A stretch of 30,493 bases of DNA from a virus. The notes under the pieces were generated by a model. The model searched no databases. It was given only the letters and a program-made list of their open reading frames with translations, and was not told the DNA's origin. The number at the start of each line of letters is the position of its first letter. The stretch's first letter is position 1. This document shows, in pieces, positions 2,512-28,199 of this stretch. The stretch is from positions 1-30,493 of the IMG/VR virus record IMGVR_UViG_3300026367_000111. One strand, 5' to 3'. The translations under genes were made by a program, and so were the position numbers.

Positions 2512-5166
2512 TTAGCGACAAGCAACGCTCAGGGTGCCTTCAGCTAGGTCAATCGGATTAATCAGGGCAACCAGATCCTCATAAGTAAGTTCCGGATCAG
2601 TTAGATCTCCGACTTCTGCTACTTGATGCTGGAATCTGACTCCGATCACATTGCTGGCCTGCACCCATGCTGTGACGGTCACACCTTGAAGGTTTAGCGA
2701 GAAAGTCACATCGACGGGCCTATTAACACGCGCGCCCGGTGCGCTGACCGTGGTGCTGACCCCTTCGCGATACTTAAGCGATGGTGGGTTATACAGCTTC
2801 GAACCTGCACCGTAGGTCGCGCCTCCAAATGCCTTCGTACGAACGATGCTTGCATTTGTTGCGGCAACATTGACTGAGATCGAGGTAGCAACGCTACTGC
2901 CCGCATCCGCGAAGTCGCTGCCTTCCATCCTGAAACCGTCGCCGGAACGGAGGTTTAGACCTGTTGAGGCAACTGTTTCGCCCCCGACGGTACGGAACCT
3001 TCGCACAACCGCATCCGTTCCACCTGTAATGTCCAAAATATCGCCCGTGCAGGCAATAGCCTTGCTGTTTTCCAGCAAGAAGGCACCGCCAAGTAAGAAC
3101 GCGTCTAAGGTGGTTTTTTTGGCAGTATAGTCATCAATAGTGACCTTACTAAATTGACCAGCAGAGACGCCCCGAAGGCCCCCCTTGCCACCGCGACCTT
3201 GGAGTGTAAGCCCGTATCCGTACTGGGCGCGAACCTGGGAGCCAGTACTAAGCCCCATGTCTATATCGTTGTTGGACAGTTCCCAGCCGTAGCAAGTCCC
3301 AAAATTAAAGGCGTCCATAGCCCCCGCAGGACCAACATATTTGATTTTGTTATCCCGCGCCTTGATGTTGCTGCACTGACCTTGGCGGAAAACGTTGAAA
3401 CACAGGTCGGAAACCGTTGGGTCGTTATCCAGTGTTCCTGTGGGTGGGCCACCAAAAGAAGTTATTTCCCCGAATTTATAGTAAGTTGACAGGCGTATCT
3501 GTGTCCCGTCAGGGCTGACCCACGAGATGCAGTACCGGAATGGCGTGGAAAGACCACTTGGGAAGGTTGCTCCGCTACCTGATTTGGTTATCCCTTGAAT
3601 CCACATTCCAACGTGAATTCCCAATTCATGAAGTGTTTCGTCACCGATCTCTCGTACCGTGATATTTCCCGTACCTGCGTCGAAGGCGGTAGGACCCAAG
3701 CGGTCGCCCTCACGATACACCGCATCGTTAAACTGTGTGCCGCCTGCTCCACCGCCAATTCCACTGGCCGAGGCTACAGAAATTTCTATATCGTTGTCGA
3801 AGAAGTCGACATCATCGCCAAACACAACGGCAAGGTTGATGCCTGCGCAGTTTCTGATGATGTTGTTGTGCACCTTGACGCGCTTGACAGCGCTTGTCCC
3901 GTCCGTGAGATAGGCGTTCGCCTCAATGTCTACAGCGCAGCGCAGAACAACGGCATCCTCGCCATTTAGCTTGCAGTTTCGGACCGTCACGTTGTCACCC
4001 GCAACAATCGAGACAACATTCCGGCGAGGTGAAACCAAGTTGCAGTCTTCGATAATCACATCTTTTGGGATTGCCTCAAGCGATGGATCGCCGCCGACAC
4101 CCTGAACTGCACCCCCCACGTAGATGCAGTCGTTTTCGCCAGTACCGCCGACCCCTAGCGATCCGTTACTAATGACCGTTCCACCTCGGATTCGTATTTT
4201 TCTGCACGGGTTGAGATGACTTGCGCTAATAAGAATTGGGTGGGATGATTGTAGCGGGTGCCGCTTTATAGTCGCGCCGAAGTATTCAAGCGTGAAATCA
4301 ACACACTGAACTTGAAATACTCGCGACCCTCCTGAAATGCCCTCAACGGTGACGCCGGGGGCCAGCTTGAGGAATGTATTGTCATCAGGAATAAGGCGAT
4401 CTGTCTTGTAGCTGCCGACGAAGTAGTCAAAGACCATTGTTCCACCCGCAGCGAGAGCCAGCATTGCTGTTAATTTATCGGTTTGCTCGGCCCCAGAAGG
4501 CGGACCAAGTGCTGCCGTGTGGTACGCACCGTCGGCAGCCTTCAAAGGCCGCAGCTTGACGCTCTCGCCGTTTTCAATGAACCCGTTTACGCTGTCTTGA
4601 GCGTAGTGATAGCCACCAGCTTCAACAATAGCACCATCGCCGCCATAAGTGCTTGACGTGTCACCTAACAGGAAAGGCACAGTGTCGAATTTCGGGCCAC
4701 CCAGCCATCCGATTTGCACCCAGGCCCCTGTTTGCACTTCCCAAACTTGCGTGCCTGCGTTGGTTTGCACTAGTTCAATGCTGTCGTTTGCTGGAATAGG
4801 ATCAGTCAGCGTTGTTACAAGGGGTGCGCCCGCTGCGAGAGCAGCAAGGCTTGCCTGAGAAGCCGCTGTGGTGGCGACCGCCGCCTGCGCTGAAGATATC
4901 CCTGCTTGGACCGTCGAAGCGTTGGCGCTTTGGTCGGACGCTTCGGCTGAATTAGCAGCCGCCTGAACAGCTTCCGTAAGATCATCGGCTGACCCAGCAA
5001 TCGCAAGAAACGCATCACGTACCTGCTTCTTTAGCGGGTTAAATTGCCCAGAAGCCGGGTCACCCACCGGGAGAGGCCGTCCTGCCGGTTCATTGGGAAG
5101 TCCGTCACCACTATACCGCTGAAAATCACGCATGGCCGTGTTTAATTGATCCGCAATGGTTCCCAT
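2512..5166 (-). CDS. Tail fibre/tailspike with right-handed beta-helix (pectate-lyase-like fold)
   Basis: An 884-residue receptor-binding protein. Residues 1-60 look like a virion-attachment segment, and about 60-115 form an Ala/Gln-rich helical neck. From about 240 to 760 there are repeated short strands with Asn ladders and motifs such as VIIEDCNL, VTVRNCKLNG, VKVHNNIIRNC and WELSNNDIDM, which is the signature of right-handed beta-helix (pectate-lyase-like) tailspikes. A small C-terminal domain follows. I chose the ATG at 5166, which has CAGGAGAAC upstream, rather than a start 21 bases earlier. The gene is visibly AT-richer than the tail genes before it, as expected for a host-range gene exchanged between phages. 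It may bind or cleave surface polysaccharide; catalytic residues cannot be assigned by eye. Confidence 0.8.
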   Translation of the reverse strand: MGTIADQLNTAMRDFQRYSGDGLPNEPAGRPLPVGDPASGQFNPLKKQVRDAFLAIAGSADDLTEAVQAAANSAEASDQSANASTVQAGISSAQAAVATTAASQASLAALAAGAPLVTTLTDPIPANDSIELVQTNAGTQVWEVQTGAWVQIGWLGGPKFDTVPFLLGDTSSTYGGDGAIVEAGGYHYAQDSVNGFIENGESVKLRPLKAADGAYHTAALGPPSGAEQTDKLTAMLALAAGGTMVFDYFVGSYKTDRLIPDDNTFLKLAPGVTVEGISGGSRVFQVQCVDFTLEYFGATIKRHPLQSSHPILISASHLNPCRKIRIRGGTVISNGSLGVGGTGENDCIYVGGAVQGVGGDPSLEAIPKDVIIEDCNLVSPRRNVVSIVAGDNVTVRNCKLNGEDAVVLRCAVDIEANAYLTDGTSAVKRVKVHNNIIRNCAGINLAVVFGDDVDFFDNDIEISVASASGIGGGAGGTQFNDAVYREGDRLGPTAFDAGTGNITVREIGDETLHELGIHVGMWIQGITKSGSGATFPSGLSTPFRYCISWVSPDGTQIRLSTYYKFGEITSFGGPPTGTLDNDPTVSDLCFNVFRQGQCSNIKARDNKIKYVGPAGAMDAFNFGTCYGWELSNNDIDMGLSTGSQVRAQYGYGLTLQGRGGKGGLRGVSAGQFSKVTIDDYTAKKTTLDAFLLGGAFLLENSKAIACTGDILDITGGTDAVVRRFRTVGGETVASTGLNLRSGDGFRMEGSDFADAGSSVATSISVNVAATNASIVRTKAFGGATYGAGSKLYNPPSLKYREGVSTTVSAPGARVNRPVDVTFSLNLQGVTVTAWVQASNVIGVRFQHQVAEVGDLTDPELTYEDLVALINPIDLAEGTLSVACR

Positions 5167-5199: not shown

Positions 5200-7197
5200 T
5201 TAGGCGATTGTGATTTCGACCGATGCCGTCTCAGGCGATGGCACGAACGACGGGTTGAGCGTCACGGCCCAATAGAAACACGTGCCGGCAGTCGGGCTTT
5301 CGGTGAAGCTGGACGGCTGACCGGCAAGACCCGCGACATCATCGACGAAGCTGGCCCCCGCATAGCTGTCGACCGTGTTGCGGAAGATCCGGGTCGCGCT
5401 GTAATTCGTTGGCGCATTGACCCAAGACAGGCTTGCCGACGATCCAGTTGCGCTGCCGTCGAATTCTGTAGGCGTGGCCGGCACGGTTGGATTACTGATC
5501 ACTGTGATTGTCCCTTCCGGATAATCTTCCTCTGCCGCGCCCTGTCCGAACCAATAAGCGCGAACATCATACTCACCCTCAGCGACGACACCCGACACGG
5601 CACGGAGGGCGCCTTCGGCCACGCTCATGCGCGTCCACGGAAAAAACGCCAGTAAATCCGCACGTTTGAACTCGACGATAAGCTGCAAATCATTGCGGTT
5701 TGGATCACTAACCTGGGCAACGATCTGGACACCAGATGTCTCCCCCGAGATCGCAACAATCTCCTGCGACAATGCCAGTCCGGACGGTACCGGGTTGACT
5801 TGCAGGTTCTGGCTTAACGACGACAATGGCGGCGATAGCGGTTTAAGATCGACAATCGACCAAGCGTCATATGTTGATCGCAGGCCGATGCGGCACTTCC
5901 CGCTGGCCGCCGAATAGCCATGGCTCAATACCTCATAGACGCCACCGATGCGCGGATGATCAATGCGGATTGTGTGGATCCCGTCACCCTTTGGAAAGCG
6001 AGCTTTGATGCCCACTAGGTTGGTCACAATCTCAACCCGATATCGGGGCCGCTCGCGCATTTCATAGGTCTGCATCAGCTTTTGCATCTGGTTGCCATCT
6101 GGGCACCAAGGGATGTCTAGCGTTTCGGTACGTTCCGCCTGCGTGTCGAGAAGGGTTTCGTTTCGACGCTCCGGTGCTTCCTCCGGTTTGAAGTTGTGAT
6201 CTTCGCTAGTGTAGATGCCCTTGAGAACATTGAAGTCCGTCATGGCGTCGACGCCGGTTTCCCAGTTCACTTCCAGAATATCATCCTGTCCGATGATCAC
6301 GTCAGGCTCGGAATACTGCCCCCCCATCAATCCGATCTTGCCCTCAGGCGTCAGATACGGCTGTCCGTCGCAAGTTTTCATGATGGCATCGAGCACGTTT
6401 CGCGGCTCATCGTTTAATCCGTAAGTGCCGGCTGCTGCGTAGCCCTGGACATCGCAGATGTCGGCAAACGCCCCAATCGCGGCATCGTCGAAATGTATCT
6501 CTGGTATGCGCATGCCATCCGGATGGCTCAAGAAATCACGCGCCACCAAGGCAGAGTTATCTGAGAAGCCCACAGCCTCGGTGCGAGGATCAAATACCTC
6601 CGACCCGTGCACAATCATCTGGATCACTGTATTCGCGCCTTTAGGGAAGATAGCACTGATCCGGCTGGGGGAAGGCCCTCTCAGCCGCGCATATGTGGTG
6701 ACACTTCCCTCGATCCTGTGCGCCGCCGTCCACATTGCCGGGAACGCGGCCAACAGGTCGGCATAATCGGACTGCGTACCGTTGCGCGTCGCGATCTGGA
6801 CAAGCCCATCAAAGCTGAACGCCCCACCCTCGTCGGTCGTGACGCCTTCGCTGTTCAGCGCAACTGTTTCGCCGTCGATGACATAGTCGAGGACCTGAGA
6901 CACCGCCCCCTCGTGATGGACAATAACGACGTGTAGGACACCATCCTTGGCCTCGAAGAAAGCCCGAAGACCGCCAAGTAGCACCTTACCATAGGAACGC
7001 CGGCGCGCTGACGCGGCCTGGCTAATATTAGCCTGCACCTCCTGCGGCGGGATCGTCGGTTGCTTCGGCTTGGCTAGGGCACTTATCGCAAGACTGACGC
7101 CCACTTGGGTCAGCGCAGTTGCCGTGGCCAGACCAATCCCGAACGTTGACGCGACAAAGCCAGCAACTGCGGCGATTGCGCTAGAGAAAATTGCCAT
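5200..7197 (-). CDS. Tail tip/central hub protein, J-like
   Basis: A 665-residue protein beginning with a long hydrophobic, Ala/Gly-rich segment (residues 1-45), then a QVQANISQAASARRRSYGKV stretch of the kind seen near the start of host-specificity (J-like) hub proteins. The middle carries the hub domains, with a tail-hub-like segment including DYVIDGE and YADLLAAF. The last 95 or so residues (from NPTVPATPTEF) read as a fibronectin type III-like domain. It is shorter than lambda J. The hub sits at the tail tip below the tape measure and holds the fibre encoded by the next gene. The start ATG directly follows the stop of the GNAT-like gene (TAAATG). Confidence 0.75.
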   Translation of the reverse strand: MAIFSSAIAAVAGFVASTFGIGLATATALTQVGVSLAISALAKPKQPTIPPQEVQANISQAASARRRSYGKVLLGGLRAFFEAKDGVLHVVIVHHEGAVSQVLDYVIDGETVALNSEGVTTDEGGAFSFDGLVQIATRNGTQSDYADLLAAFPAMWTAAHRIEGSVTTYARLRGPSPSRISAIFPKGANTVIQMIVHGSEVFDPRTEAVGFSDNSALVARDFLSHPDGMRIPEIHFDDAAIGAFADICDVQGYAAAGTYGLNDEPRNVLDAIMKTCDGQPYLTPEGKIGLMGGQYSEPDVIIGQDDILEVNWETGVDAMTDFNVLKGIYTSEDHNFKPEEAPERRNETLLDTQAERTETLDIPWCPDGNQMQKLMQTYEMRERPRYRVEIVTNLVGIKARFPKGDGIHTIRIDHPRIGGVYEVLSHGYSAASGKCRIGLRSTYDAWSIVDLKPLSPPLSSLSQNLQVNPVPSGLALSQEIVAISGETSGVQIVAQVSDPNRNDLQLIVEFKRADLLAFFPWTRMSVAEGALRAVSGVVAEGEYDVRAYWFGQGAAEEDYPEGTITVISNPTVPATPTEFDGSATGSSASLSWVNAPTNYSATRIFRNTVDSYAGASFVDDVAGLAGQPSSFTESPTAGTCFYWAVTLNPSFVPSPETASVEITIA

Positions 7198-21358: not shown

Positions 21359-22060
21359 TTATTCGGCAAGCACTTTCTTCCATGGGGTCATGGGCGGCAT
21401 ACGGTCATCTACTGCCCATTTTGACAGATTAGTGTGTATTTCAAATGTGATACGCAGTTCACTTAATGCAGACCACCACTGCAAATAATTACGCCGAGCA
21501 GCCGCCACCTGCCCGCCATCAGGCCGGTAAACCACAGGACAGATCAGGACATTGTGACGTCGAGGCTTTCGACCCGAGGAATCAATTTCGATGCCTAGGC
21601 TTTCAGTTTGTGCGCGTTTGCCGTTCTGATTGATCCGCCAGTCCTTCGGCTCACACCGCGGATGTACCCCGACGAATGCATCAGGCATAGCCCGCGCTCG
21701 CGCCAGTTCAGCGATCTGCACAGCCATGCGCCTGCCACCGCAACCCTCTGGCAATACCGCAACGGCAGCAGCCACCATGTCAGCATCAGGATCTGGCAAC
21801 GATCGGCCACCGCCATCTATGCGACATCCGAGCGCGCCACGCTGTGCCATCAAGTAGGCATTCCCGATCGCGCCGTATCCCATCGCCAAAGTGCCTTCGT
21901 CTTCAAAGTCGATAGACGCGCACTCATCCGCAAATGCCCATTCCAGCAGCGACTGGATACTGATCTGCCTGCGCACGCGTCCCAAGCCATCGCGTCTTGC
22001 TTGTGCCGCTATCGTCTTGCCAATCCGACGACCTGACTGGACAAACCTTTGCGCCATCAT
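21359..22060 (-). CDS. Phage protein of unknown function upstream of the packaging genes
   Basis: A 233-residue protein I do not recognise. The N-terminus is basic (GRRIGKTIAAQARRDGLGRVRR), the middle has an acidic patch (ADECASIDFEDEGT) and alternating Gly/Ala segments, and a Trp-rich C-terminal part (NYLQWWSAL) ends the protein. Position before HNH and terS, after the replication genes, is where many phages carry late regulators or junction resolvases, but no HTH or nuclease motif is visible. The ATG at 22060 overlaps the upstream stop as ATGA. Confidence 0.55.
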   Translation of the reverse strand: MMAQRFVQSGRRIGKTIAAQARRDGLGRVRRQISIQSLLEWAFADECASIDFEDEGTLAMGYGAIGNAYLMAQRGALGCRIDGGGRSLPDPDADMVAAAVAVLPEGCGGRRMAVQIAELARARAMPDAFVGVHPRCEPKDWRINQNGKRAQTESLGIEIDSSGRKPRRHNVLICPVVYRPDGGQVAAARRNYLQWWSALSELRITFEIHTNLSKWAVDDRMPPMTPWKKVLAE

Positions 22061-22647
22061 GCTGCATCCTCCGACACACCAGACTGATTGCCGACCAAAC
22101 CCTCGACATATGCGACCTTGCCCTGGTACCAATCGAGCCATTGTGCTTCATCTTCGGCAATGGTGTGGCCGCGCGCGATCCGATCTTTGGCCAGCTCGAC
22201 CCTACGTCGCCACTCGTTTGCTTTGTCGGCAACCAGCTTTTTGTCCATCGGTTTGACCGGCGGTCGTTTGTGCATCGTCCAGAACCAATATTCAGCAACC
22301 AACCGGTCACCCAGCAGGGCCGCACCACCAGCCGCAGAGGCAAACCAGCGCAGCAGCGCAGGCAGCTCATCCAGCGGACGGCGCTGAAAGCTTTCTGCCA
22401 ATCCGAGCACTGTCGCGGGCGCAGGCCAGAAGCACCGGGCGGATCCTTCACCCTTGGTCCGAAGCGAGACGCGCAGGGCGATCAGCCCGTCATCCTTCAG
22501 GTAGGCCAGATCATCAGCCAGGCGGTCCAGCCGCGTCTTGGCATCTTCTGCCGTCACACCCTTAGCAAACCGAAACCCGTCAGCCTTTAACGGATCAATC
22601 AGCAGCCTGCGCACGCGGTCCCGTTTGCTCTCTGTCGCCTCTTCCAT
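22057..22647 (-). CDS. Phage protein of unknown function downstream of the putative origin
   Basis: A 196-residue, largely helical and charged protein (KRDRVRRLLIDPLKADGF, then AEDAKTRLDRLADDLAYLKD, later KANEWRRRVELAKDRIARG). It has a Trp/Phe cluster in the centre (AEYWFWTMHKR). No family is recognised. It starts right after the iteron-like region with AAGGGG as ribosome site and couples to the next gene by ATGA. A DNA replication accessory role is possible from position only. Confidence 0.55.
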   Translation of the reverse strand: MEEATESKRDRVRRLLIDPLKADGFRFAKGVTAEDAKTRLDRLADDLAYLKDDGLIALRVSLRTKGEGSARCFWPAPATVLGLAESFQRRPLDELPALLRWFASAAGGAALLGDRLVAEYWFWTMHKRPPVKPMDKKLVADKANEWRRRVELAKDRIARGHTIAEDEAQWLDWYQGKVAYVEGLVGNQSGVSEDAA

Positions 22648-22740
22648 GCCGTTCCCCTTTTCTCAGCCTAACCACGTATCAAAAGCCACAACGCCCGATC
22701 TGTCGGGACTGCGTCTGTTTCTCTGTTATGTCTCTGTCTA

Positions 22741-22858
22741 TGTCCCTGTCGTGTAGGACACTTGAGGACAGAGTGACGAACCATTTGAAATAATTGAGCA
22801 ATCTCCAAAGAGTGTCCTCGAACTGTCCTGCAATTGTCCGCAAAGTGTCCACCGGACA
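22741..22858. repeat. Iteron-like TGTCC array, candidate phage replication origin
   Basis: TGTCC occurs at 22813, 22824, 22835 and 22846, exactly 11 bp apart, so all four copies lie on nearly the same face of the helix. Further copies are TGTCC at 22741 and the inverse GGACA at 22756, 22766 and 22854: eight copies in 118 bases, where about 0.2 are expected by chance. An AT-rich stretch (about 22781-22810) lies between the two groups. The array fills the largest gap of the window and follows the replication-type gene. This is the layout of an iteron origin; operator sites are the main alternative. Confidence 0.5.
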
Positions 22859-22872
22859 GTTCGGAACACCCA

Positions 22873-23517
22873 TCACATCGCACCCCGACGCGGCGCACGG
22901 CCTAGGTCCATACGATGGTCTGCCCACGCCATCATTGCCTGCTCGACCCAGCTGGTGTTGCGATACCCAACGCCCTGCTTAAGAAGCCATTCGTCCATCC
23001 ATTTAACGGCGGCATCGTTCTTGCTCATCTCAGTCTGGAGGCCCGCTACAGTCGCCCGCAGGCGCTGGACGCGCTTGACGGTGTTCGCCGCTTCCATCTT
23101 TGCCCGATTATCTTCCTTGCGCGACACGGCCTCGATCAGCATGTCGAGCACAACGGGATGCATCAGCCGCACTTCATCACCGCAACGACAGGGTCGCCAC
23201 TTGTGCAGCGGGCCGTATTCAAGCTGGCACAACGTTTTAAAATCGGATTCCGAAATCATAAGCAGCTTGGCCAGCACTTCCATATCGTTCGGGATCGTGC
23301 CAACCGGTGACTGGTCGCAGGCAATGTTGATCAGATCGAAGTACAGCGCGCGGCACTCGGCGCGCCCCTTCAACCGCATGTCCGAGTTCAGCCAGCGCCG
23401 GCGCTCCCAAACCATGAAGAAGTGACTGTTCAGCCGGTCATCACGGGTGAGAGGGTATTCCTCGATCTCGGACATTTCGACCAGGGCAAGCCGCCCTGTT
23501 GGTGCTGCCAACGACAT
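22873..23517 (-). CDS. Replication-type protein (DUF1376-like)
   Basis: A 214-residue protein. The block beginning FFMVWERRRWLNSDMRLKG, then CRALYFDLINIAC and GTIPNDMEVLAKLLMIS resembles the N-terminal region of DUF1376-type phage replication proteins, where a short helical domain precedes a variable C-terminus. A CRC-GDEV motif lies near residue 111. A charged helix (KEDNRAKMEAANTVKRVQRL) follows. I chose ATG at 23517 with AGGAGC upstream; a TTG six bases earlier is possible. It sits immediately upstream of the TGTCC array and may be its binding protein. Confidence 0.55.
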   Translation of the reverse strand: MSLAAPTGRLALVEMSEIEEYPLTRDDRLNSHFFMVWERRRWLNSDMRLKGRAECRALYFDLINIACDQSPVGTIPNDMEVLAKLLMISESDFKTLCQLEYGPLHKWRPCRCGDEVRLMHPVVLDMLIEAVSRKEDNRAKMEAANTVKRVQRLRATVAGLQTEMSKNDAAVKWMDEWLLKQGVGYRNTSWVEQAMMAWADHRMDLGRAPRRGAM

Positions 23518-23519
23518 GA

Positions 23520-24434
23520 TCAAGCTCCTGCCCGCTGACGCAGAATTCGCAGCAACCGCGATTGATGACCGATATCACCGACCTTGGTATTCAGCGCTTT
23601 AAAGCGGGCCACTACATCGCCGACCTCGACACCGAGATCATCTGCCACCAGCGCCGAAGCCTTGCCCGTGATCAAGCCTGACAGGATCTCAAAATCCTTC
23701 TCAGCAGACCAACCACCTGAATACCCAAGATCATCCAGATGGACGACAACGATACGGTCATCCGCGGATAGCTTAGGCGTGGTCTGAACTGCCGCTGGCG
23801 CAGGCTTGGGCATCGCAGTTGCCTTCAGCTTCACGGGCGCTGGTGCAGCAGCTGCGGGTCGCGGCTTTTTCGCCCGCTCTGCTTTTATAGCTTTGATCTT
23901 CATGCCAACCGAGATCTTACTCCGGTTCACAAGATCGGCAATCTCATCGCGGCTTTGCCCGGCATCGAACGCCTTGGCAATGCGCTCAATTTCATCATCA
24001 GTGAATGGTCCGACCTTGTAGTCACGAAGCCCCGGCTTCATCGCTTTTGCGCCGCTACGTTGCTTCTTCACAGGGCCCACAGCTTTGCGGGTCGCAGACG
24101 CGGGCGAAACAGATGCCGCGTCCGCAGCAGCCACGGGCGCTTCCAAACTCGGCTTCTCCGAAACTACTGCCGCATCAGCAGGCTTGGCTTCCGGTAACAC
24201 CAGTGATTGCATCACCGGCAACACAAAGCTGACCGAGACACGCGCCCCAGTGTCAAAGGAGAAATCAGCATCGAGGCCGATGCGCTCCAAATCATCTTTA
24301 GCAGTGCGCAGGAATATCAGGACGTCATCCACCAGCTTCACCGCGTGCTCGAGCTTTGCAAGATCCGCTTGCAGAGCAACAAGAGTGGCTCCGCCCTGCC
24401 CTTGAATCCCCTTAAGCTGTTCCAGAACGTTCAT
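23520..24434 (-). CDS. DNA-binding protein with two homeodomain-like modules
   Basis: A 304-residue modular protein. Residues 1-50 look like a coiled coil. About 143-187 (GPFTDDEIERIAKAFDAGQS, then RDEIADLVN...KIKAIK) has the spacing of a SANT/GcrA-like helix-turn-helix. A Pro/Ala/Lys-rich linker (188-225) leads to a C-terminal module (226-304) in which LITGKASALVADDLGVEVGD followed by VVARFKAL recalls the same pattern. It is coupled to the methyltransferase (ATGA) and precedes the replication-type gene. A role in transcription or replication control is inferred; I know no family for the whole protein. Confidence 0.6.
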   Translation of the reverse strand: MNVLEQLKGIQGQGGATLVALQADLAKLEHAVKLVDDVLIFLRTAKDDLERIGLDADFSFDTGARVSVSFVLPVMQSLVLPEAKPADAAVVSEKPSLEAPVAAADAASVSPASATRKAVGPVKKQRSGAKAMKPGLRDYKVGPFTDDEIERIAKAFDAGQSRDEIADLVNRSKISVGMKIKAIKAERAKKPRPAAAAPAPVKLKATAMPKPAPAAVQTTPKLSADDRIVVVHLDDLGYSGGWSAEKDFEILSGLITGKASALVADDLGVEVGDVVARFKALNTKVGDIGHQSRLLRILRQRAGA

Positions 24435-25159
24435 ATCGTCTGCTCCTCTTGCTGATTATGGGTATCGACCGCTGCGCGCACTCGCGCACAGGAAGCCTCA
24501 AAATGCTGTGGTGATTTCTCAATCCCGATCGCGTGCCGACCGGACTGAACCGCGGCGACGAGCGTGGTGCCTGACCCCATGAACGGATCCAGCACCAATT
24601 GATCTGGCAGCGATGAATTTTCGATATAGAGACGCATCAAGTCGACTGGCTTTTGCGTTTTGTGGACAGCGTTAGCAGGGCGATGGCCGCGCCAGACGCG
24701 CTTGCTGCCGCCGTTATTGATGTCGACTGCCCTTCCCTTCCACAGATAGAGCGTGAACTCGCTATCCTTCATGTAATACCGCGTCCGGTTGGGGACGATC
24801 TTGTCCCAGACAAGCAAACTGTGAAGCTTGAAGCCCGCGCCGATAAAACCGCCATGCGCGGCGAAAAGATTGCTGTCCTCTGACATGACGTAGCAATCGG
24901 CATCTGGTTTCAGCGCTCGAAAGATCGGCCCGCCAATCTCGTGCCAGCCAACCACGTCCATAAGCAGGCCGGAATTGTCATAGACGGTGCTGGAGAACTT
25001 GCCGCCCATGGCGCCGGGTCGAGACCCGCCCGAGGACAGCGCGTAAGGCGGATCTGTGACGCACAGATCCGCCCGCAGGTCCAGTGTCGGCAGGATCGCC
25101 CGCGCATCGCCCTGAATCAGGCGGCAGCCGCCGATGGTGATATCGCGCTCGATCGGCAT
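24431..25159 (-). CDS. DNA adenine/cytosine-N4 methyltransferase, beta-type motif order
   Basis: A 242-residue orphan DNA methyltransferase. Asp36-Pro-Pro-Tyr39 (motif IV) comes before Asp191-Pro-Phe-Met-Gly-Ser-Gly-Thr-Thr199 (AdoMet motif I), the order of the beta group that includes CcrM. A HKTQKPVDLM block lies between, as usual. The target site cannot be read from sequence. No restriction gene is nearby, so it may protect phage DNA or mark it for regulation. The start at 25159 is preferred because the longer TTG-start frame begins inside a likely -10 box. It is the first gene of the leftward operon after a strong terminator. Confidence 0.88.
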   Translation of the reverse strand: MPIERDITIGGCRLIQGDARAILPTLDLRADLCVTDPPYALSSGGSRPGAMGGKFSSTVYDNSGLLMDVVGWHEIGGPIFRALKPDADCYVMSEDSNLFAAHGGFIGAGFKLHSLLVWDKIVPNRTRYYMKDSEFTLYLWKGRAVDINNGGSKRVWRGHRPANAVHKTQKPVDLMRLYIENSSLPDQLVLDPFMGSGTTLVAAVQSGRHAIGIEKSPQHFEASCARVRAAVDTHNQQEEQTI

Positions 25160-25194
25160 CAGTGGCCGCAACCAGCGAGAACGGCGAAATGACA

Positions 25195-25223
25195 ATTATC
25201 TTGTCTGTGGAACAGCACAACAT
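25195..25223 (-). promoter_or_regulatory. Possible promoter for the methyltransferase operon
   Basis: On the minus strand GATAAT (25195-25200) is a good -10 box; the -35 (ATGTTG at 17 bases) is poor. Transcription would begin a few bases later, leaving a short leader before the ATG at 25159. It lies directly downstream of a strong terminator, so the next operon needs a promoter in this place. Confidence 0.35.
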
Positions 25224-27760: not shown

Positions 27761-27869
27761 AAACTCTCCTTAAAACTGTTTCTGATTTCATATTTTCCCG
27801 CTTTATGCGCTGCGAACAAGTCCTTCCCTCCCTTGCGAGACGGTGAGTCGCCACCCGTTTATCATGTCT

Positions 27870-27924
27870 ATGCGTTTTGCATTGACAATGCATCATGCAT
27901 TTTGCATTACATACTGCATTACGC
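27870..27924 (+). promoter_or_regulatory. Repressible promoter and operators of the xis/int operon
   Basis: TTGACA (27882-27887) with CATTAC (17-base gap) or TTACAT (19) forms the promoter. The dyad GCATTGACAATGC (27879-27891; 7+1+7 when one base is added on each side) is centred on the fourth base of the -35, as in the Cro-like promoter. Further copies are ATGCATCATGCAT and a tandem of TGCATTAC at 27903 and 27915, 12 bp apart. It lies 18-30 bases upstream of the first gene. Confidence 0.7.
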
Positions 27925-27941
27925 TGAAATGGAGCGAGACA

Positions 27942-28199
27942 ATGCAAGTATCCACAGAAACGGCAAAACACATCGTCACCCACCCGCAGATCTACGCGAG
28001 CCAACCAGCAGTGCTGGCGATCAACTGGGAACGGCTCAAGAATGCGCGGGGCCAGTCGGTCGATCACGATCGTATCGGGGCACCCGCCTATCTGATTGTC
28101 GATACCGACCGCGCCAGCGCGCAAATAATCCGCATCCGCAGCGCGGTCCGCGATTATGCCCAGACCAAGGGCTATGACCTGCCGCCGAGTGCAGCATGA
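27942..28199 (+). CDS. First gene of the rightward operon, unknown function
   Basis: An 85-residue soluble protein (AKHIVTHPQIYASQPAVLAI near the start, DTDRASAQIIRIRSAVRDYA near the end). No family recognised. The start at 27942 has GGAG 7 bases upstream and follows the repressible promoter; longer versions would read through the operators. Being the first gene under this promoter it should be made soon after induction, as expected for a regulator or an anti-host protein. Its stop overlaps the next start (ATGATG-A). Confidence 0.6.
   Translation: MQVSTETAKHIVTHPQIYASQPAVLAINWERLKNARGQSVDHDRIGAPAYLIVDTDRASAQIIRIRSAVRDYAQTKGYDLPPSAA

Follow-up and report, generated by a model that had tools for sequence, protein, structure and literature searches.

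Locus layout and the TGTCC array

The IMG/VR virus record IMGVR_UViG_3300026367_000111, analyzed over its full 30,493 bases and referred to here as the window, carries integrase, CI-like regulator and terminase genes and is the genome of a temperate phage whose relatives are prophages and phages of the Rhodobacteraceae. The subject of this study is an array of the short word TGTCC (GGACA on the other strand) that fills much of a 225-base gap (22648-22872) between two minus-strand genes encoding proteins of 216 and 196 amino acids, and that probably forms part of a phage replication origin. Read along the minus strand, the 216-residue gene (22873-23523; 214 residues if counted from the ATG) is followed by the repeats, or iterons, then by a purine-rich, A-rich tract, the position of a DnaA box, and the 196-residue gene (22057-22647).

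The gap holds eight copies of the word. On the plus strand TGTCC starts at 22741, 22813, 22824, 22835 and 22846, the last four being exactly 11 bases apart, while the minus-strand copies occupy 22756-22760, 22766-22770 and 22854-22858. This count of five direct and three inverted copies bears out the initial annotation, which had described four TGTCC words spaced 11 base pairs apart accompanied by one direct and three inverted copies. The annotation was also right to judge the array beyond chance: 3000 dinucleotide shuffles of the gap averaged 0.98 copies, and none held more than 7. The window has no other run of four identical 5-mers at a single period from 8 to 14, and none of 3000 shuffles produced one. 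Across its full length the window has only a slight excess of TGTCC (71 vs 56), so the signal lies in the cluster. A strict single-period test of this kind overlooks arrays that mix steps of 10 and 11, and a histogram of spacings was used instead for the comparison of loci.

In minus-strand reading the copies fall into two groups. The first (22813-22858) consists of one inverted copy and then four GGACA words at 11-base steps. The second (22741-22770) has the form TGTCC-N5-TGTCC-TACACGACAG-GGACA and is the best conserved core, which served as the basis of a search pattern. Between them lies a spacer (22771-22812) that is missing from the compact versions found in many relatives. The array had been said to span an AT-rich stretch; this holds for the spacer, and there only moderately (38% G+C), but not for the gap overall (50% G+C).

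Next to the second group on the minus strand is the tract AGGGACATAGACAGAGACATAACAGAGAAA (22718-22747), which is 80% purine and 60% A+T and is a candidate unwinding element. A run of GACANN hexamers (GACAGG GACATA GACAGA GACATA) passes through this tract beside the conserved core at 22724-22751; these hexamers may be lower-affinity sites or an unwinding element. Further on, at 22661-22680 on the minus strand, is the DnaA-box position, where most relatives have an exact TGTGGATAA and the window a degenerate CGTGGTTAG with mismatches at three of nine bases. With the tract and this position included, the functional unit would be wider than the repeats (22741-22858), extending over about 22661-22858. 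Rfam gave no match within 22500-23000, and GC skew was uninformative, since the genes are almost all on the same strand.

Conservation of the array among relatives

A search for the same array at the same place in relatives had been proposed as a check, and the array was present wherever the 216-residue gene is intact. In all 24 relatives found by means of the 216-residue protein, a TGTCC/GGACA array directly follows the gene. An independent search used the DNA pattern of the conserved core, TGTCCNNCACGAYAGRGAMA, against 2.9 million viral contigs and returned 46 matches, 40 of them just downstream of a homologue of the 216-residue protein (46-99.5% identity). The remaining six were in unrelated contigs and were dropped as chance matches. 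One apparent counterexample, a shortened homologue without an array in Sagittula plasmid p1 (7977-8462 of that locus) with transposase genes close by, was set aside as a decayed fragment and prophage remnant.

More distant homologues, which are about 28-37% identical to the window protein in alignments, have other words in the same gap: GGAACA in loci L085 and L032, GGAAGGAA in L084 and L087, and CGGAA in L089-L094. In all four word types the direct copies are spaced 10 or 11 bases apart. The 11-base pair TGTCC period that first drew attention to the locus is thus correct for the window, but what the family as a whole keeps is a step of 10 or 11 bases, one turn of the helix, while the word varies. 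The array words are concentrated in the gap and occur essentially nowhere else in the loci read. Beyond the DnaA box, four loci (L036 at 5719-6013, and also L034, L038 and L069) contain a second array, made up of five TGTCC and two GGACA words, which looks like a duplicate of the iteron array.

The elements beside the array were compared in 31 representatives. A purine-rich tract follows the array in every array type, with the best 30-mer averaging a purine fraction of 0.85 after the array, 0.75 in shuffles and 0.72 in the flanking genes. The exact DnaA box is present in 18 of the 31, always in the same orientation, against a chance expectation that we estimate at ~0.02 (~6,200 positions over 4^9).

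The 216-residue protein as the probable partner of the array

Among 51 loci, array distance followed the distance between 216-residue proteins when the downstream protein was held constant (partial Mantel 0.91, 0/2000 permutations), while the converse partial Mantel, for the downstream protein, was -0.19. Because the 51 loci share ancestry, the permutation count should not be read as an exact probability, and the argument is carried by independent exchanges. In 12 locus pairs the downstream proteins are more than 70% identical and the 216-residue proteins less than 50%; the arrays differ in all 12 (mean similarity 0.23). For the 238 converse pairs, with close 216-residue proteins and diverged downstream proteins, mean array similarity was 0.65.

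There are three groups of natural swaps (L032 vs the window; L091, L092 and L094 vs L018; L084 vs L048). In each, the downstream gene product is 89-94% identical, the 216-residue protein is 32-34% identical and the array is different. The swap between L032 and the window is the clearest. The two share a methyltransferase (85% identical), a 304-residue protein (73%), the 196-residue protein (89%) and a 260-residue protein (83%), and between these conserved flanks the 216-residue gene and the array have been replaced jointly. DNA homology of 77% extends up to the first bases of the 216-residue gene, is absent across gene and array, and is back at 82% from window position 22671, 24 bases before the next gene. 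In two more exchanges similarity also returns near the DnaA box, at 5800 in L084 (box at 5812) and at 3803 in L091 (box at 3805). Exchange borders in this position mean that gene, array and purine tract move together and that the DnaA box is part of the flanking DNA common to both loci.

From these sequence comparisons, the 216-residue protein is very probably the partner of the array. The alternative that an adjacent protein is the binder has some initial appeal: the 304- and 196-residue genes are both adjacent, and the 304-residue protein, which the initial annotation had named as a candidate, has a weak helix-turn-helix match. However, the 304-residue gene is absent from most array-bearing loci and its product is 73% identical in L032 despite the different array there, which excludes it. 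The 196-residue protein is 89-94% identical between loci with different arrays. The natural exchanges largely refute either neighbor as the binder, and the likelihood left to them is scant. An apparent loss of linkage to the downstream gene was considered as further evidence and rejected; that gene is in fact conserved but diverged, and the longest downstream open reading frame is misleading in several loci.

Predicted structures of the two proteins

The description of the 216-residue protein as a replication-initiator-like protein and putative array binder draws on phrog_22470, AlphaFold2, Foldseek and the covariation with array type. The AlphaFold2 model (predicted local distance difference test score, pLDDT, 88.6) comprises a winged helix at about residues 39-119, a long helix and a small C-terminal helical domain. 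Of the 32 members of the family, 29 have a match to phrog_22470, whose annotation is 'replication protein'. With Foldseek, the model resembles DUF1376 phage proteins (E 1.8e-5), which suggests a distant relationship at the level of predicted fold. The 196-residue protein is modeled as all-helical (pLDDT 88.9) and had no family match. Its place after the array resembles that of λ P, and its designation as a candidate helicase loader is a guess from position. Neither protein showed homology to λ O or P in Pfam, PHROGs or PDB sequences.

A candidate replication origin

Taken together, the comparisons make it probable that the gap is a phage replication origin, λ-like and iteron-based, located behind its initiator gene. 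The gap has helix-phased tandem repeats as putative binding sites, with a 10- or 11-base step between direct copies whatever the array type; repeats that appear, from the partial Mantel result and the cassette exchange, to be specific to their own initiator; and an adjacent AT-rich or asymmetric tract as a candidate for unwinding. Of the readings weighed, the one first proposed, in which a replication protein binds a helically phased array at the origin of a phage, has survived best, with the array's sequence following the 216-residue gene and itself followed by the purine tract and usually a DnaA box.

We infer that the protein physically binds the array, that the strands open, that the 196-residue protein loads the helicase and that replication starts at the gap. 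The 216-residue winged-helix protein would bind the 5-6-base modules, one per turn of DNA, and so assemble into a nucleoprotein complex along a single face of the helix. This complex could then strain the purine-rich, A-rich tract next to it until the strands part. The replicative helicase of the host may be recruited with the aid of the 196-residue protein and, at loci that have a box, of host DnaA.

Several results weigh against an origin at this site. Taken one by one, only 20 of the 31 representatives, the window among them, have a significant purine tract, and the DnaA box is degenerate in the window and its closest relatives. The protein evidence is also modest. The match to phrog_22470 is weak (E 6e-5), and the 216-residue protein scored 16 bits against Pfam DUF1376, below the threshold of 30.1. 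Its top four matches among PDB folds were RepA_N-type plasmid initiators (4pql, 5kbj, 4pt7) at a non-significant E of 0.12, with no Pfam match to the RepA_N domain. For the 196-residue protein the best PDB fold was the λ P helicase loader, again not significant (E 0.46). The RepA_N and λ P fold matches are pointers only. Lastly, the gap heads an operon leading to the packaging genes and could have a role in control.

This last point leads to the strongest competing explanation, in which the array is a transcriptional operator through which the 216-residue protein or another phage regulator switches on the operon running from the 196-residue gene into the packaging and structural genes. Phased direct-repeat arrays are also used by response regulators and activators, the gap is directly upstream of that operon with all genes on one strand, and a terminator scan found no terminator in it. 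A simple sigma-70 scan, however, found no promoter-like site towards the operon. The array is far bigger than a usual operator, none of the other promoters in the loci read has copies of it, and the putative binder resembles replication proteins. An operator would also leave the fixed-place exact DnaA box unexplained, and we consider this explanation unlikely.

A centromere-like partition site, or a cos- or pac-like packaging or recombination site, served by a protein unrelated to initiation, is less probable still. Short phased repeats do occur at partition sites, and the centromere binders TubR and AspA are among the non-significant fold matches of the 216-residue protein. Yet the terminase genes are located elsewhere, the protein linked to the array is replication-like, a DnaA box and purine tract accompany the repeats, and the phage has an integrase, an integrating prophage needing no partition site. 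As for a chance or low-complexity repeat without function, a word of only five bases invites the suspicion, but the shuffles already refute it, the array is kept in dozens of diverged relatives, and the same phasing recurs in four word types; such an explanation deserves next to no credence.

Comparison with known origins

A replication origin in the gap would share its layout with the λ origin, where O and P act: an initiator gene, an iteron array, an adjacent purine-asymmetric AT-rich tract and then a gene at the helicase-loader position. In λ, too, origin sequence and initiator are matched. Almost all purines of the λ AT-rich region are in one strand (PMC5043065). The λ iterons sit within the O gene itself, and each is an inverted repeat to which an O dimer binds (PMC7466680, PMC5043065). 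Here, unlike in λ, modules of 5-6 bases at 10-11-base steps stand in mixed orientation, mostly in direct order, behind the gene and outside it, and the homology to O and P is lacking.

The repeat unit of iteron plasmids is about 17-22 bases. At 10-11 bases the unit described here is half as long, and the module is found in temperate phages; the 216-residue protein matches no plasmid Rep family. Plasmid origins of the P1, F and RK2 type also have mostly direct, helix-phased repeats, an AT-rich region and, as in many of the window's relatives, DnaA boxes (PMC5043065). The RepA_N initiators (pSK41, pTZ2162, PLE satellite) offer a further parallel as winged-helix initiators that recognize repeats, a property only predicted here, but they differ in that the 216-residue protein has no significant sequence or fold match to them. 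The DUF1376 and phrog_22470 phage proteins are related by predicted fold and by PHROG match, with the Pfam score below threshold, and no description of an origin was found for them.

What would set this candidate apart from known iteron origins is that its modules are short and spaced by one turn, that it lies behind the gene and that it is exchanged as a cassette. Searches of the available literature found no description of this origin. A bolder proposal, which we offer tentatively and think rather doubtful, is that the locus represents a distinct class of initiator and origin. In such a class a small winged-helix protein would read a single 5-6-base module per turn in either orientation and form a one-sided, filament-like complex instead of a paired-site one, gene and array would be exchanged as a cassette, and the word would set compatibility groups among co-resident Rhodobacteraceae prophages.

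Other features of the window

Just upstream of the replication module is an N6/N4 DNA methyltransferase gene (24431-25195), which is conserved in 23 loci, many of them overlapping copies, and may place a mark on the origin or early region. At 27860-27950, near the regulator region, is a dense cluster of TGCATT/AATGCA words (eight copies of ATGCA/TGCAT in ~225 bases), possibly a second operator array.

Related replicons and significance

The module extends to other replicons. Phaeobacter inhibens pP66_i (NZ_CP010714.1), a complete circular record of 33.8 kb with phage genes and an integrase, has the same module and a pair of DnaA boxes, but no plasmid rep gene is annotated on it, an indirect point in favor of an origin in the module; it may be a captured circular phage or a phage-plasmid. 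The module is also carried by Psul1, an active phage of Paracoccus, with p22 as the homologue of the 216-residue protein. The authors who described Psul1 saw no resemblance to replication proteins already known and suggested p21 for the role (PMC6536676).

Temperate phages are common in marine Rhodobacteraceae, and we found no description of their replication start site or of the protein that acts there. The module described here supplies a candidate initiator and origin for Psul1 and many relatives. Moreover, the natural exchanges are ready-made specificity swaps for studying how initiator recognition and the array change jointly.
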